A stretch of DNA of 64,000 nucleotides, taken from NCBI RefSeq assembly GCF_004362245.1, contig NZ_SNWM01000001.1:1054001-1118000 (forward strand), given 5' to 3'. Shown here piece after piece: positions 41,778 through 48,270 of this stretch. The stretch's first letter is position 1, and each line of letters opens with the position of its first letter. A program made the position numbers and the translations under genes. The notes below the pieces were generated by a model. That model was given only the letters and a program-made list of their open reading frames with translations. It did not search any database and was not told where the DNA came from. The DNA comes from Pedobacter duraquae. Lineage in GTDB: Bacteria; Bacteroidota; Bacteroidia; Sphingobacteriales; Sphingobacteriaceae.

Positions 41778-43502
<1,725 letters not shown>

Positions 43503-43528
43503 ATATATCTAGAAACAGCATTTTATAA

Positions 43529-43556
43529 CGAAGGCAGGATAATTTCCTGCCTTTCG
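43529..43556 (+). terminator. Hairpin after the ABC-F gene
   Basis: GAAGGCAGG and CCTGCCTTTC pair closely (43529-43538, 43546-43556). Weak U-tract. Confidence 0.6.
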
Positions 43557-43582
43557 TGTTTATTATTAACGTGATTAACTAA

Positions 43583-43614
43583 AAAAGGATTATTGCATCC
43601 ACAATAATCCTTTT
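43583..43614. terminator. Second hairpin after the ABC-F gene
   Basis: AAAAGGATTATTG (43583-43595) pairs perfectly with CAATAATCCTTTT (43602-43614), with A and T flanks. It can act in either direction, also ending the convergent GTPase gene. Confidence 0.75.
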
Positions 43615-43734
43615 GAACTAAAATGAAAATAAGTTTTGACTGATGAGGTTCAAAACGAACTTCCTACTTAACTAAATAATGAATTACAAATATAGACGTA
43701 TTATTATTAGTTGCAACAATATTGCATTAATTAA

Positions 43735-44937
43735 TTATAACACTCTCTCAAAGGGATTCTGAAAAATGTAGCGTTCCCTATATAGCTCCAGTTCCCTATT
43801 GGTAAGCAGGCAACTTTCTAATTCCTTTTTCAATTGCACGTTATCGAGATCCTGGGCTATTAATACAAGTTCATTCATGCGATCACCAAATTGGGTATCC
43901 CAGCGGCTTTCTATAGCCTTCCGATTTTCAACATAATCACTAAAACCGAGTCTTTCCTCTAGCGTCATACTATCCCACCATACCCCGGCGTTTTCGATGC
44001 GTAACGATCCTCCTGCCTGAGAAAAGTTCAGCGCCATTTCTGGCATTGCCGCCAACCAGAACAGTCCTTTTGTGCGAATCACATTTGGTGGGAATGACGC
44101 GTTCAGATAATCCCATAAACGTTCAGGATGAAATGGTTTAGCCGATCGAAATACCATGCTGCTGATCCCGTACACCTCGGTTTCTGGATCGTGGGCGGTA
44201 TTTAATTCACTGGTCCAGCCCGCCCCCTGCGATGAGCGTTCGAAATCAAATAGGCCTGTGTCTAGGACTTCTTTAATATCAACCTTACTAAAGGTTGATG
44301 TTATCTGTTTAGCTTCAGGATTTAACTTGCCAATTACCGCCTGAATCAATTGCAAATCTGCATTACTGATGAGGTCAGTCTTATTCAATATAATTACATT
44401 AGCAAATTCGATCTGATCCGTGAGCAAGTTGACAATTGTTCTGCGATCAGCGATATCGTCTACCCAAAGCCTGTCTTGAAGCAGTTCTGCCGTTCCAAAA
44501 TCTTTTCTGAAATTGAAACAATCTACAACCGTGACCATGGTGTCTAAGCGACTAAACTGGCTTAGATCGATTCCAGCCTGTTCATCAACATAGCTAAATG
44601 TTTGTGCAACCGGAATAGGCTCAGAAATACCGGAGCTTTCGATGATGAGATAGTCAAACCGGTTTTCAAGCGCAAGCTTTTCTACTTCCGCAATCAGATC
44701 TTCACGCAAAGTGCAACAAATACATCCGTTACTCATTTCGACAAGTTTTTCTTCAGTTCTTGAAAGCATATGTTGCTGCTCTACCGTGCGCGCATCAATA
44801 TTGATCTCGCTCATATCATTCACAATTAACGCAACTTTAAGCTGTTCTTTATTGTGTAAAATATGATTTAATAGCGTTGTTTTTCCGCTACCAAGAAATC
44901 CACTGAGCACGGTTACTGGTAATTTTTTTCTAATCAT
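43735..44937 (-). CDS. COG0523 (CobW/ZNG1-type) metallochaperone GTPase
   Basis: 400 residues. Walker A is GFLGSGKTT (13-21), the switch region has [10 protein letters not shown], and a C-x-C-C metal site stands at C72-x-C74-C75 (SNGCICCTL), the zinc-binding motif of the family. A C-terminal CobW_C domain follows ([20 protein letters not shown]). Family members deliver zinc to target enzymes when zinc is scarce and are often under Zur control. It is divergent from a MerC-like gene, and a palindrome (44940-44956) sits just upstream of its start. Confidence 0.93.
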
Positions 44938-44939
44938 AA

Positions 44940-44956
44940 AAGCAATTTAGTTGCAA
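44940..44956. promoter_or_regulatory. Candidate metal-regulator box 1 (upstream of the COG0523 gene)
   Basis: AAGCAATTTAGTTGCAA holds the core GCAA-N5-TTGC and sits directly before the GTPase start codon on the minus strand. It is the weakest of three matches to ATGCAA-N5-TTGCAT; the other two are perfect. Its centre lies 40 bp from box 2. Confidence 0.5.
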
Positions 44957-44979
44957 ATATATGAGACTAATATTACTTA

Positions 44980-44996
44980 ATGCAACTTATTTGCAT
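44980..44996. promoter_or_regulatory. Candidate metal-regulator box 2 (upstream of the MerC-like gene)
   Basis: ATGCAACTTATTTGCAT is a perfect ATGCAA-N5-TTGCAT palindrome, 14 bp before the ATG at 45010. The same palindrome recurs at 45439-45455. Confidence 0.7.
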
Positions 44997-45009
44997 TTAT
45001 ATTTGTACC

Positions 45010-45387
45010 ATGAAATCACTTACTCAATCTGGCAGTCTTGATAAACTCGGAATCACGGCGTCGATAGCATGTGCAATACATTGTGCCGCCCTACCTGTAA
45101 TCATCACTACTTTACCTTTATTTGGTCTCGAATTTCTCGCGAATATCTGGTTCGAAATAGGAATGATCAGCTTATCACTAATCATCGGCACTTATGCTTT
45201 GTTAAGCTCCTATCCTAAACATAAAAAAGCATTACCAATAGTTGTACTGGTGAGCGGATTTCTATGTATTGGTACAGGACACATTCTGATCGAAAGCCTG
45301 GAATCCATTTTAATACCTGCAGGCGGAATTGTTATTGCTGCGGCACACCTAATCAATTGGAGACACACCAAAATTTGCCGCCACTAA
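45010..45387 (+). CDS. MerC domain-containing membrane protein
   Basis: About 125 residues from the ATG at 45010 (MKSLTQSGSLDKLGITASIA); an ATG at 44980 is part of the palindrome and unlikely. Four hydrophobic helices are present, with the vicinal-site region SIACAIHCAALPVIITTLPL, which has the C-x3-C metal motif typical of MerC. The C-terminus ends with HLINWRHTKICRH. A small metal-transporting or metal-sensing role is likely, here probably zinc by context. Confidence 0.85.
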   Translation: MKSLTQSGSLDKLGITASIACAIHCAALPVIITTLPLFGLEFLANIWFEIGMISLSLIIGTYALLSSYPKHKKALPIVVLVSGFLCIGTGHILIESLESILIPAGGIVIAAAHLINWRHTKICRH

Positions 45388-45438
45388 TAGAGTACAGCCT
45401 AAGTGGCGGACAGGTAGCAATTACTTTACACTCATAAA

Positions 45439-45455
45439 ATGCAATGTCATTGCAT
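45439..45455. promoter_or_regulatory. Candidate metal-regulator box 3 (upstream of the ABC operon)
   Basis: ATGCAATGTCATTGCAT is a second perfect ATGCAA-N5-TTGCAT palindrome, 43 bp before the ABC ATPase ATG at 45499. An ATG that begins inside the box is therefore not the start codon. Confidence 0.7.
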
Positions 45456-45498
45456 AAACTTTAATTCTGAACTATCTTTAACCACCGATAAAGAATCT

Positions 45499-46128
45499 AT
45501 GATTGAACTAAAATCAGTAGCCCATACCTACTCCGGTACCCAGGCAATAAAATTCAGGGACTGGAAAATCAACAATGGTGAACAATGGTTGTTACTTGGC
45601 GGCTCAGGAAGCGGAAAAACGACTTTACTACATATTCTCACTGGAATATTAAAACCTGAAATAGGAAAAGTTTTTATTGAGGACACATCGATATATGAGC
45701 TCACATCGCGGAAACTGGATCAATTCAGGGGGCGCCATATAGGTATTATCTTCCAGCGTCCACACCTGATCAAGAGTTTGACTATTGCAGAAAATTTGAT
45801 TTTGGCGCAAACTTTTGCCGGTCTCAAAACTGATCAGGAACGGGTAACTGAGGTTTTAGCTTCGCTTGATATCGATCATAAAATGCATGCTTACCCGGCC
45901 ACCCTTAGTCAGGGACAATTGCAGCGCGTATCTATTGCCCGTGCGGTAGTAAACAGGCCGGCCCTGTTAATCGCTGATGAACCTACATCTAGTCTGGATG
46001 ACAAAAATGCATTTGCAGTATTAGATTTATTGCTGCAACAATCTGGTTTGAACCAGGCTACACTAGTGGTTGCTACGCACGACAAGAGAGTTAAAGATGC
46101 TTTTACCAATACCTACGAATTAATATGA
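45499..46128 (+). CDS. ABC transporter ATP-binding protein (LolD/MacB type)
   Basis: About 209 residues from the ATG at 45499 (MIELKSVAHTYSGTQAIKFR). Walker A GGSGSGKTT, Q-loop in FQRPHLIKSL, signature LSQGQLQRVSIARAVV, and Walker B LLIADEPTSSLDD are intact. This type powers FtsX-like permeases rather than classical uptake. The permease overlaps by 4 nt (ATGA), so both are made together. Confidence 0.92.
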   Translation: MIELKSVAHTYSGTQAIKFRDWKINNGEQWLLLGGSGSGKTTLLHILTGILKPEIGKVFIEDTSIYELTSRKLDQFRGRHIGIIFQRPHLIKSLTIAENLILAQTFAGLKTDQERVTEVLASLDIDHKMHAYPATLSQGQLQRVSIARAVVNRPALLIADEPTSSLDDKNAFAVLDLLLQQSGLNQATLVVATHDKRVKDAFTNTYELI

Positions 46129-47339
46129 GCCCGTTAAAAATAAGCTGGAAAAGCATTTGGTCAAAACCCTTATCGTCTGCATTGAACATGATGTTGGTTG
46201 CATTCGGAACAGGGATCTTAACACTCTTATTATTGGCATCAGCGCAGATTAGCGATAAACTCAATAACAACTCAAAGGATATCGACCTTGTAATAGGTGC
46301 TAAGGGAAGTCCACTACAGTTAATCCTGAGCAGCATTTATTATATTGATTTTCCAACAGGTAATATTCCACAAAAAGATGCTGATGCGCTAGCGCATAAT
46401 CCATGGGTTAAGCGTGCTGTACCACTAGCATTGGGCGACAATTATAATGGGATTCGTATTGTTGGAACAGATTCTAATTTTGCAGCGCTTTATAAACTTC
46501 AGATACAAGAAGGAAAATTATGGTCAGGCGATTTTGAGACCACCATCGGCGCTGATGTTGCCAGAACTCAACAGCTTAAGGTTGGCGACTCCTTTTATGG
46601 GGCACATGGCCTGACAGGAACCACTGATATCCATAAAGCGCACGCCTATAAGGTTGCTGGTATCCTAAGTCCGCAAGGCAATGTGACTGACAACTTAATC
46701 CTTACCAACATTTCGAGTGTCTGGAAAATGCATGATCCTGAAGAAGAACATGATCATAGTAAAGCAGAAGATCCAACAGCAGCAGCTGAGATTCAGGACA
46801 GAGAGATTACTTCTCTATTGATCCAATACCGGTCTCCAATGGCTGTCGTAATGTTTCCGAGGATGGTAAATCAATCTACAAATTTACAGGCCGCGTCTCC
46901 GGCACAGGAAAGCACACGACTTTTTTCATTGATTGGTGTGGGCGTTGATACACTACAATGGTTTGCGGTGCTTATTATGCTGATTGCCGCCATTAGTGTG
47001 TTTGTAAATTTGTATAACTCTTTAAAAGAACGGAGTTACGACCTTGCGATTATGCGAACATTAGGAGCATCCAGAACCAAGTTATTCCTTATTGTCATCA
47101 TAGAAGGGATGCTGCTTACGCTCGCTGGAACGGTAATTGGTATCGCACTCGGGCACGCGGCACTTGGTTTAATCAGTCATTTCCAGGAAAGCAGTCAGGC
47201 AAAATTAAATGGTTTACTATTCCTTAAAGATGAAATCTACCTCTTGATTGCTGGGCTGTTGATCGGTATATTTGCTTCAGTAATCCCAGCAATTCAAGCA
47301 TACAGTGCCAACATTTCTAAAATCTTATCAAAAAATTAA
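46125..47339 (+). CDS. FtsX/MacB-type ABC permease
   Basis: 404 residues. An N-terminal helix (about 17-38, LSSALNMMLVAFGTGILTLL) is followed by a large periplasmic domain. Three C-terminal helices (about 280-395) contain the FtsX motif SLKERSYDLAIMRTLGASRT. The loop KMHDPEEEHDHSKAEDP is His- and acid-rich and could bind metal. It overlaps the ATPase by 4 nt and the next gene follows after 1 bp. With the operon's Fur regulator and upstream palindrome, it looks like a metal-linked transporter similar in gene content to the Zrg-type zinc-uptake loci known in Vibrio; that comparison is from memory. Confidence 0.87.
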   Translation: MSPLKISWKSIWSKPLSSALNMMLVAFGTGILTLLLLASAQISDKLNNNSKDIDLVIGAKGSPLQLILSSIYYIDFPTGNIPQKDADALAHNPWVKRAVPLALGDNYNGIRIVGTDSNFAALYKLQIQEGKLWSGDFETTIGADVARTQQLKVGDSFYGAHGLTGTTDIHKAHAYKVAGILSPQGNVTDNLILTNISSVWKMHDPEEEHDHSKAEDPTAAAEIQDREITSLLIQYRSPMAVVMFPRMVNQSTNLQAASPAQESTRLFSLIGVGVDTLQWFAVLIMLIAAISVFVNLYNSLKERSYDLAIMRTLGASRTKLFLIVIIEGMLLTLAGTVIGIALGHAALGLISHFQESSQAKLNGLLFLKDEIYLLIAGLLIGIFASVIPAIQAYSANISKILSKN

Positions 47340-47340
47340 C

Positions 47341-47778
47341 ATGAAAAAATTACTCTTTGTCTTATTCTTATTTTCGGGCATTGTTGCCAAAGCACAGCAT
47401 GATCCTGCAGATCAGATTATATCTGCTAACTGGGACGTTGTGGGCGGTGTTGATTTTAAAATCATTAAAGACACCCAGATGTATGCTCAGTTTACACCAG
47501 AGATTAAGAAATATGCAAATAAGCCTTTTGAGCTGGAGGGTTATATTGTCCCGATCAAAGATGGGATGAAACAAACTAAGTTTATGCTATCCACATTGCC
47601 GATCAATCAATGCTTTTTTTGCGGCAAAAATGGTGTACCAATCATGGTTCTAGTAGAACTTACTGAGCCTATTAAATTCACTTACCAAACAGTTACAATT
47701 AAAGGAACCCTACGTTTGAGCACTGCAAATGCGCTCGACAATCCACCTATTGCACTCATTAACGGCAAATCTATCTAA
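47341..47778 (+). CDS. Secreted DUF3299-like protein
   Basis: 145 residues from the ATG at 47341 (MKKLLFVLFLFSGIVAKAQH), beginning 1 bp after the permease stop. A signal peptide ends at AKAQ. The core shows FELEGYIVPIKDGMKQTKFM, then NQCFFCGKNGVPIM with a C-x-x-C pair, and IKGTLRLSTANALDNPP. The layout fits DUF3299 proteins, which often sit with zinc-linked ABC systems. The cysteines may bind metal. Function unproven. Confidence 0.8.
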   Translation: MKKLLFVLFLFSGIVAKAQHDPADQIISANWDVVGGVDFKIIKDTQMYAQFTPEIKKYANKPFELEGYIVPIKDGMKQTKFMLSTLPINQCFFCGKNGVPIMVLVELTEPIKFTYQTVTIKGTLRLSTANALDNPPIALINGKSI

Positions 47779-47782
47779 CAAG

Positions 47783-48211
47783 ATGAAAATAGATCCTATC
47801 GATATTTTAAAACAAAACGACCTCAAACATACAAAACAGCGTGTCCGCGTACTGGAAGAGATTGCCATGGATAACGTAGCCATTTCGCAACCTGAGCTCG
47901 AGAAAAAGTTGGGTAAAGAGATTGACCGTGTTACGCTTTATCGTATTCTTAATGTTTACGAGGATAAAGGAATACTACACCGGGTTATGGATTTAAATGG
48001 CACTGCAAATTATGCGATCTGCTCATCTTCCTGTACTTCTGAGCATCACCACGATGAGCATGTACATTTTAACTGCACCAATTGCCACAAAATATACTGT
48101 CTAGATGTTACCATACCTCAGGTCAAAATGCCAGCAGGATTCTCTGCTGTTGCATTGAATTCAACAGCCTATGGTGTTTGCGAAAAATGCAACGCCCGGG
48201 TAAAAAATTAG
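47783..48211 (+). CDS. Fur-family transcriptional regulator (Zur-like by context)
   Basis: 142 residues from the ATG at 47783. An N-terminal winged helix (KHTKQRVRVLEEIAMDN, then ISQPELEKKLGKEIDRVTLY) is followed by a dimer domain with two structural zinc pairs, C98-x-x-C101 and C133-x-x-C136, and a His cluster (EHHHDEHVHF) at 87-96. It is the last gene of the ABC operon. The neighbouring zinc-type genes and the three palindromes make it the probable regulator of the cluster, sensing zinc; this is inference. A strong terminator follows. Confidence 0.9.
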   Translation: MKIDPIDILKQNDLKHTKQRVRVLEEIAMDNVAISQPELEKKLGKEIDRVTLYRILNVYEDKGILHRVMDLNGTANYAICSSSCTSEHHHDEHVHFNCTNCHKIYCLDVTIPQVKMPAGFSAVALNSTAYGVCEKCNARVKN

Positions 48212-48214
48212 CAT

Positions 48215-48257
48215 CATAAAAAAACGGCATGGAGAATTTCCATGCCGTTTTTTTATG
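48215..48257. terminator. Bidirectional terminator between fur and slyD genes
   Basis: CATAAAAAAACGGCATGG (48215-48232) is perfectly complementary to CCATGCCGTTTTTTTATG (48240-48257) around AGAATTT, an 18-bp stem with A and T runs serving both convergent genes. Confidence 0.93.
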
Positions 48258-48270
48258 ATTTTAGATCCTG

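Follow-up and report, generated by a model that had tools for sequence, protein, structure and literature searches.

A 64,000-nucleotide (nt) stretch of the Pedobacter duraquae genome (hereafter the window; NCBI RefSeq assembly GCF_004362245.1, contig NZ_SNWM01000001.1, positions 1,054,001 to 1,118,000, forward strand) raises the question of which regulator, answering to which metal, controls a COG0523 GTPase gene, a merC-like gene and an ABC transporter operon that ends in a Fur-family gene, here called zurA. An initial annotation had proposed that one palindrome, repeated at three transcription starts, defines a zinc regulon. The comparisons below indicate that this palindrome, refined to TGCAAY-N3-RTTGCA, is almost certainly a Zur-type operator of Bacteroidota, and that zinc is very probably the signal of the regulon. 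A fourth copy of the box heads a candidate small RNA (sRNA), which is predicted to pair with the start of an M28 peptidase mRNA.

The box in the window and among relatives

Perfect palindromes of the form ATGCAA-N5-TTGCAT had been claimed at 44980–44996 and 45439–45455, and both are present as stated; the weaker GCAA-N5-TTGC copy claimed before the COG0523 gene is also present, at 44942–44954. All three sites are real, but the local sites number four: a perfect copy at 43712–43726, just outside the interval annotated, had been missed. The four boxes are listed here.

43712–43726, unstranded: fourth box, TGCAACAATATTGCA; perfect TGCAA-N5-TTGCA; presumed operator of the candidate sRNA
44942–44954, unstranded: weaker box, GCAATTTAGTTGC; GCAA-N5-TTGC, immediately 5′ of the COG0523 start codon
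44981–44995, unstranded: box TGCAACTTATTTGCA, 5′ of the merC-like gene
45440–45454, unstranded: box TGCAATGTCATTGCA, 5′ of the ABC operon

The exact 15-mer TGCAAN5TTGCA has three copies in the window, against a mean of 0.27 in dinucleotide shuffles, and none of 100 shuffles reached three. Relaxing the pattern to GCAAN5TTGC with one mismatch removes the enrichment (48 copies against 43.5 expected), and this form was dropped as a search criterion, its count not exceeding chance; the specificity of the box therefore lies in the longer form. Across the 5.29-Mb home genome the exact 15-mer occurs at ten places, three of them inside 1.75 kb of the window. Three of the other seven are intergenic: one separates a Fur paralog from a P-type ATPase, one lies 5′ of a thioredoxin-reductase-like (TrxR-like) gene and one separates a permease from a tricorn-like S41 protease. 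The remaining four fall within long open reading frames (ORFs; SusC-like, DnaK, UvrA and HD-domain, named by reading) and are taken as chance. With at most one mismatch to the refined 17-mer, nine places were found, of which six are intergenic and five of these adjoin genes (or the RNA) found beside the box elsewhere too, so the home genome seldom has the pattern at unrelated genes.

The check proposed with the annotation, a scan of relatives for clustering at zinc genes, gave a clear result. Of the 80 loci retrieved for ZurA homologues of Pedobacter, Sphingobacterium and their kin, 53 contain a recognised cluster gene (MerC, COG0523 or permease); the exact 15-mer occurs in 51 of these 53 loci vs three of the 27 others. 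Shuffling in two-base blocks, a crude control that was also applied to the loci outside the family described below, gave an exact box at 2.9%. In an earlier selection of 40 loci from a longer list (20 type-A, 20 type-B), the exact box was found in 9 of the 20 type-A loci. Across 61 family genomes the exact 17-mer occurs at 40 places, compared with 16 for the reversed control, and for 20 of them a ZurA/FurB-like gene is no more than 8 kb away (chance about 0.5% each), two of the 20 being the window's own.

ZurA/FurB-like proteins were detected in 33 of the 118 genomes of a phylum sample at E 1e-15. All 38 loci of the listed matches outside the family were retrieved, and 24 contain an exact box around the Zur/Fur paralogs, against 1.6% in block shuffles; four of the 24 (L301–L304) have identical box sequence. 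The box lies 5′ of ZnuA-ABC-permease-Zur genes in L313 and of Fur-ZnuA-ABC-permease genes in L331, where ZnuA was confirmed by PF01297 and its partner genes were named by reading. Zur-box-MerC-like neighbourhoods recur in L308, L317, L318, L321 and L324–L328, the MerC-like assignment being by Pfam in L317 and by BLAST to the window protein or by reading in the rest. A TrxR-like gene adjoins an exact box and zur in L317, L318, L320 and L323, an exact box in L255, and one-mismatch boxes in L322. The base after TGCAA, unconstrained in the searches, is T or C in 133 of 140, 51 of 52 and 27 of 32 half-sites, and because it is a pyrimidine in nearly all of them the box was refined to the form given above. 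The zinc regulon first read from the palindrome is thus well supported by comparison across Bacteroidota, at zinc-cluster loci and ZnuA operons alike, and is ordinary in kind.

Other box neighbourhoods were observed in passing. At C1:887306–887469 of the home genome (L423), two one-mismatch boxes separate divergent genes for small secreted proteins rich in His and Cys; beyond one of these genes comes a TonB-receptor-like gene, beyond the other an ABC ATPase and a permease. Small proteins of this sort are also found at boxes in L061, L252, L250 and L251, the one in L251 matching DUF6660. The exact box 5′ of the tricorn-like S41 protease (C1:240987, L018) has a second COG0523 gene just beyond it, and the TrxR-like flavoprotein gene of the home genome adjoins its box at C2:186715 (L019), as in L255, L317, L318, L320, L322 and L323. 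A TonB receptor with a weak ZnuD match and a His-rich lipoprotein are encoded 3′ of exact boxes in L116 (4621–7418) and L113, and may together take up zinc across the outer membrane in some Pedobacter.

The regulator, its metal and a second Fur paralog

The genes that adjoin the boxes in the window, and the −7 elements recognised between the two divergent ones, are as follows. The latter were located with the Bacteroidota consensus TAnnTTTG.

43735–44937, minus strand: COG0523 GTPase, ZigA-like zinc chaperone (PF02492/PF07683; NF038288 529.5 bits, cut-off 600)
44954–44961, minus strand: −7 element TATATTTG of the COG0523 gene, its end touched by the weaker box at 44942–44954
44998–45005, plus strand: −7 element TATATTTG of the merC-like gene
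45010–45387, plus strand: MerC-family membrane protein, candidate zinc transporter by presumed role (PF03203 91.3 bits, above cut-off)
45499–46128, plus strand: ABC ATPase, resembling ZrgC of the Vibrio Zrg operon in type and neighbouring genes (PF00005)
46125–47339, plus strand: FtsX/MacB-type permease, resembling ZrgB in type and neighbouring genes (PF02687, PF12704; above cut-off)
47341–47778, plus strand: secreted DUF3299-like protein, resembling ZrgE in type and neighbouring genes (PF11736 16.3 bits, cut-off 22)
47783–48211, plus strand: ZurA, presumed zinc-sensing Fur-family repressor (PF01475 33.4 bits, cut-off 23.1; ligands; alignment to 4mtd; AlphaFold model)

The earlier COG0523 assignment holds, with ZigA as the nearest zinc chaperone model, below its cut-off. 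DUF3299 is indeed the best Pfam match of its protein, but a sub-threshold one, as it also is in both relatives tried. In Vibrio parahaemolyticus the Zrg genes are induced 76- to 148-fold under zinc limitation, and zrgA of this operon is repressed by Zur (PMC9817125).

Three Fur-family genes are present in the home genome, encoding a canonical Fur, ZurA and a second paralog, FurB. ZurA has the Fur winged-helix and dimerisation domain above the PF01475 cut-off, and the Zur-like cysteines that the annotation saw in this last gene of the ABC operon are invariant in 18 of 18 relatives. Its AlphaFold model (predicted local distance difference test score, pLDDT, 85) finds E. coli Zur 4mtd as its top VIA match (Z 13.6, root-mean-square deviation (rmsd) 2.8, 136 aligned) and Xanthomonas Zur 7dh8 as its second (Z 13.2, rmsd 2.8, 133 aligned). 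Fold alone cannot part Zur from Fur, because the Fur chain 9a4a_B, at Z 12.8, is within 1 of the top. An 18-relative profile of ZurA aligns to 4mtd with E 6e-9, with Fur chains scoring slightly above it in this sequence search. In E. coli Zur the structural zinc site consists of Cys103/106/143/146 and the sensor site (site B) of His77, Cys88, His96 and Glu111, with Cys88 the most conserved site B residue across Zur proteins (PMC4219657). In ZurA two CxxC pairs (C98, C101, C133 and C136) form the structural site, and H66 and C80 are aligned to the positions of His77 and Cys88; all six residues are invariant in 18 of 18. H89, H93 and H95 are candidates for the equivalent of His96. By alignment, the protein at 47783–48211 has most Zur zinc ligands; it is presumed to be a Zur, its presumed operator stands at zinc-starvation genes, and it is predicted to bind the box.

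The placement of the boxes is suggestive of repression. At COG0523 upstream sites in relatives the exact box starts within the −7 element in 21 of 38 cases, in the same register as 44942–44954, and the box ends 2–7 nt upstream of the −7 element at 17 of 29 ABC sites and 8 of 39 MerC sites; many box sites had no TAnnTTTG within range. The natural reading would be that a box-bound repressor keeps RNA polymerase off the promoter.

Several observations sit uneasily with a plain zinc-corepressed Zur. ZurA has no clear equivalent of Glu111, C106 lying near the aligned position, and no box was found near the ZurA orthologue of Sphingobacterium, which lies in a housekeeping region (ZurA targets elsewhere there were not searched). 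The Streptomyces Nur box, tTGCaa-N5-ttGCAA (PMC3919588), has the same half-site and spacing, and the same box is found at a zinc-export cluster, where such a regulator should not repress. The annotation's zinc operator is borne out at zinc-starvation genes, but it is not a pure uptake operator, because it also occurs at the zinc-efflux cluster with the second Fur paralog, and its half-site is that of the nickel regulator. It is nevertheless highly improbable that the box is a nickel (Nur-like) operator, with Fur paralogs that sense nickel and a regulon that serves it. Nur likewise acts via an sRNA (s-SodF), and the box is Nur-like in sequence, which does not make the regulator a Nur: the recognised box genes are of zinc type (ZigA-like COG0523, ZnuA operons, the Zrg-like ABC genes and the Zn/Cd-type P-type ATPase), and the regulator has the Cys88-aligned cysteine, both CxxC pairs and two Zurs as the top matches of its model. 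Among the recognised genes beside boxes in the retrieved loci there are no nickel transport or nickel superoxide dismutase genes, no search having been aimed at nickel genes.

FurB, which has the same cysteines and histidine as ZurA at aligned positions, has CzcA/CzcB-like genes and the gene of a Zn/Cd-type P-type ATPase as neighbours (TIGR01512, TIGR01525; PF16576, PF00873). The exact box was found in 17 of the 20 retrieved type-B (FurB) loci, mostly between FurB and the export ATPase, and zntA-like sites have a −7 element in 13 of 18 cases, with a spacing of exactly 13 nt in 12 of the 13. Both counts favour a box that is mainly FurB's, serving zinc export, and that ZurA shares, the paralogs competing or cross-regulating; so does Streptomyces Zur, which, besides repressing uptake genes, switches on the exporter gene zitB (PMC5472717). 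FurB may then repress without metal or activate with zinc, and either metal-free repression by FurB or zitB-style activation would make sense of the export box. Primacy of FurB is still unlikely: P. metabolipauper (G120) has a single ZurA/FurB match yet has boxes and the RNA, and many loci outside the family join zur and box with merC, TrxR or znu, with no FurB in the stretch.

Two further arrangements were recorded around these genes. In the home genome FurB forms an operon with a His-rich Zn/Cd P-type ATPase, the exact box lying between them (C3:412296; L021:5291–7728), and this FurB-box-ATPase order repeats in other families of the phylum. Between zur and a SlyD/FKBP-like gene, a perfect 21-bp inverted repeat with a 5-nt loop (48213–48259) is probably a bidirectional terminator.

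A box-headed candidate small RNA and its predicted target

The fourth box precedes an element that comprises the following features.

43583–43614, unstranded: perfect 13-bp inverted repeat with A/T-rich arms; probable terminator of the ABC-F gene, possible second terminator of the sRNA
43622–43684 (ends approximate), minus strand: candidate sRNA; unpaired invariant 5′ segment TTCATTATTTAGTTAA, hairpin, loop TCATCA, U-rich tail, no ATG
43687–43694, minus strand: −7 element TATATTTG of the sRNA, TAnnTTTG-type

Read along the minus strand, the unit runs from the box at 43712–43726 through 17–18 nt to TATATTTG, an invariant TTCATTATTTAG segment, a hairpin and a U-rich tail. The RNA is about 65 nt long, with an invariant loop and 5′ segment and a variable stem. 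A covariance model built from nine promoter-free transcripts matches it at 43624–43688 (54.8 bits) and finds a single copy in each of 16 of the 145 genus genomes. An exact box lies upstream of 14 of these 16 homologues (five of seven among genomes outside model building), and in 14 of 14 homologues checked the −7 element stands 17–18 nt after the box, as TATATTTG in 13 and TATTTTTG in one. Compensatory changes were found in 9 of 16 pairs, a number reached in 0 of 500 shuffles, in an alignment that was fitted to the structure. Rfam gave 0 matches across the whole window, the weak ones in 43500–43760 being far below gathering scores. At sequence level, the promoter and terminator, the lack of an ORF and the conserved structure expected of an sRNA are all present, and the RNA is probably transcribed and controlled by its box. 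Its distribution is less favourable to this view, as it is limited to part of Pedobacter and two weak homologues (P. hartonius and Pedobacter sp. L105) have no box. P. namyangjuensis has the box and a diverged RNA 5′ segment. Among 301 family genomes the RNA was found outside Pedobacter only as one match (G004), which has no box and is taken as chance; weak homologues could be missed outside the genus, because the search scored just 16 candidates per genome.

The RNA lies 3′ of COG0523 on the same strand in eight of the nine genomes first aligned and ends with a terminator-like hairpin, which would suit a conserved element that only terminates the COG0523 mRNA or forms its 3′ untranslated end and does nothing in trans. 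That explanation is decidedly unlikely, given the box and the −7 element 17–18 nt upstream (TATATTTG in 13 homologues, TATTTTTG in one), the presence of the RNA without a neighbouring COG0523 gene in L058/L112, the invariance of the unpaired 5′ segment and loop beside a varying stem, and a 5′ segment that fits M28 starts best where the RNA is present.

This last fit came from a wobble-tolerant search of 13 RNA-bearing genomes for a complement of the RNA 5′ segment containing ATG, which yielded perfect 16-mer matches in G120 and G250, each at the start codon of the gene for an orthologous, zinc-dependent M28 peptidase (PF04389). The M28 gene is present in 34 of the 36 genus genomes searched (it was not found in G233 in this search), and the RNA 5′ end pairs with its start codon in 11 of the 12 genomes that have both a strong RNA copy and the gene. 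Duplex energies in these 11 average −13.9 kcal/mol (range −9.6 to −16.5), vs a mean of −7.9 and a best of −10.3 kcal/mol in 17 genomes without the RNA, with three more at −5.5 to −8.4. Tree neighbours with and without the RNA differ in the same direction (G250 −16.0 vs G181 −4.5; G000, the home genome, −9.6 vs G050 −6.1; G120 −16.5 vs G159 −7.8 and G151 −10.3 kcal/mol; protein tree). None of 231 other start regions in RNA-bearing genomes matches the M28 pairing strength of seven of the 11 genomes, and 0 of 1000 shuffled RNA segments did as well across seven representative M28 start regions. The 12-mer CTAAATAATGAA has six matches at long-ORF starts in six genomes, four of which are the M28 gene; the other two are a GH3-like hydrolase (G194) and a TonB receptor (G250), once each. 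A target search of the home genome with three mismatches gave 158 matches against 220 for the reversed control, and no convincing start among the 30 loci read.

Other results count against M28 as the target. G120 and G250 provide no independent test, since they were used to find it, and the independent lineages number about four to five, with G215 the failing one, because a single close clade accounts for seven of the 11 genomes. In G215, which has a strong RNA copy, M28 pairing reaches just −6.3 kcal/mol; the two weak-RNA genomes with an M28 gene do not pair (−4.5 and −5.5; mean −5.0 kcal/mol); and pairing in the home genome is moderate, with 27 of the 231 other starts doing as well. The complementarity might be a coincidence, the RNA having other targets or titrating a protein: moderate pairing is frequent at the A/T-rich start regions of these genomes (background mean −6.3, standard deviation 2.4), G215 does not fit, and the FKBP/SlyD-like gene beside zur pairs similarly with or without the RNA, its pairing being equally good in many RNA-less genomes, for which it was rejected as a target. 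Coincidence is nonetheless somewhat unlikely in view of the perfect 16-mer complementarity that two lineages share at this start codon, the same register in nine further strong-RNA genomes, the weak pairing in RNA-less tree neighbours and the 0 of 1000 shuffles, and the M28 peptidase is modestly favoured as the target.

Proposed mechanism and relation to known systems

Under zinc-replete conditions, zinc-loaded ZurA would occupy the four boxes, which would overlap or abut the −33/−7 promoter region, and would block the COG0523 chaperone, the MerC-like protein, the Zrg-like ABC/DUF3299-like/zur operon and the sRNA. In zinc-poor cells the repressor would leave, and the transport genes and sRNA (about 43684 to 43622, minus strand) would be made; the invariant unpaired 5′ end of the RNA would pair with the start-codon region of the M28 mRNA, block its translation and spare zinc. 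As a whole, this explanation, a Bacteroidota Zur operator regulon with a zinc-sparing sRNA acting on the M28 peptidase, appears quite probable.

ZurA shares with the Zur proteins of E. coli (4MTD), Xanthomonas (7DH8) and Vibrio the Fur-family CxxC/CxxC site and, by alignment, a Cys-containing sensor site, and COG0523, ZnuA operons and the Zrg-like operon are common to known Zur regulons and this one. The proteobacterial Zur box is AT-rich, for example TGAGTGTTATATTATAACACCCG at Vibrio zrg (PMC9817125), whereas here it is TGCAAY-N3-RTTGCA. Unlike known Zur regulons, the present one is centred on merC-like and TrxR-like genes and small His/Cys-rich secreted proteins, and unlike E. coli Zur, ZurA has no Glu at the Glu111 position. 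The Nur/s-SodF system of Streptomyces coelicolor likewise combines a Fur-family regulator with an sRNA whose antisense pairing lies upstream of or at a gene start, but s-SodF is processed from an mRNA 3′ end, whereas the RNA described here has its own box and promoter element and is associated with zinc-type rather than nickel genes. RyhB, a metal-sparing sRNA under the iron regulator Fur, acts by start-codon pairing. RyhB-type sRNAs and the candidate RNA would both be released by a Fur-family repressor at metal shortage and shut off metal enzymes, a role known for the former and predicted for the latter, which differs in its metal, zinc, and in its unrelated sequence. The Haloferax s479 sRNA also takes part in zinc homeostasis; it is archaeal, CRISPR-linked and acts on the transporter mRNA znuC1, and the accessible part of its description does not mention Zur control.

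Neither a Bacteroidota Zur box nor a Zur-controlled sRNA was found in the passages of open literature consulted, including those of PMC3087516, PMC2770081, PMC6103462, PMC8155600 and PMC8000910, with subscription papers and databases such as RegPrecise lying outside the search. None of the open papers found on Zur regulons mentions Bacteroidetes. What is new is the operator sequence, its phylum-wide spread, the link to efflux and, above all, the box-headed RNA with its predicted zinc-enzyme target. Whether the fourth box reveals the first known zinc-starvation sRNA under Zur, a RyhB-like antisense RNA masking the start codon of a zinc peptidase, as part of a Zur regulon that spans the phylum and whose operator, through a second Fur paralog, governs zinc export as well, is evenly balanced. 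The finding of a single operator at genes for zinc import as well as zinc export, in the presence of two Fur paralogs, is a puzzle. For the whole phylum, the comparison supplies a concrete, testable Zur box. The candidate zinc-sparing sRNA with a predicted target addresses, for Zur, the gap left by a 2022 review of metal-responsive RNAs, whose Table 1 lists sRNAs under Zur as “none reported” (PMC9294342).

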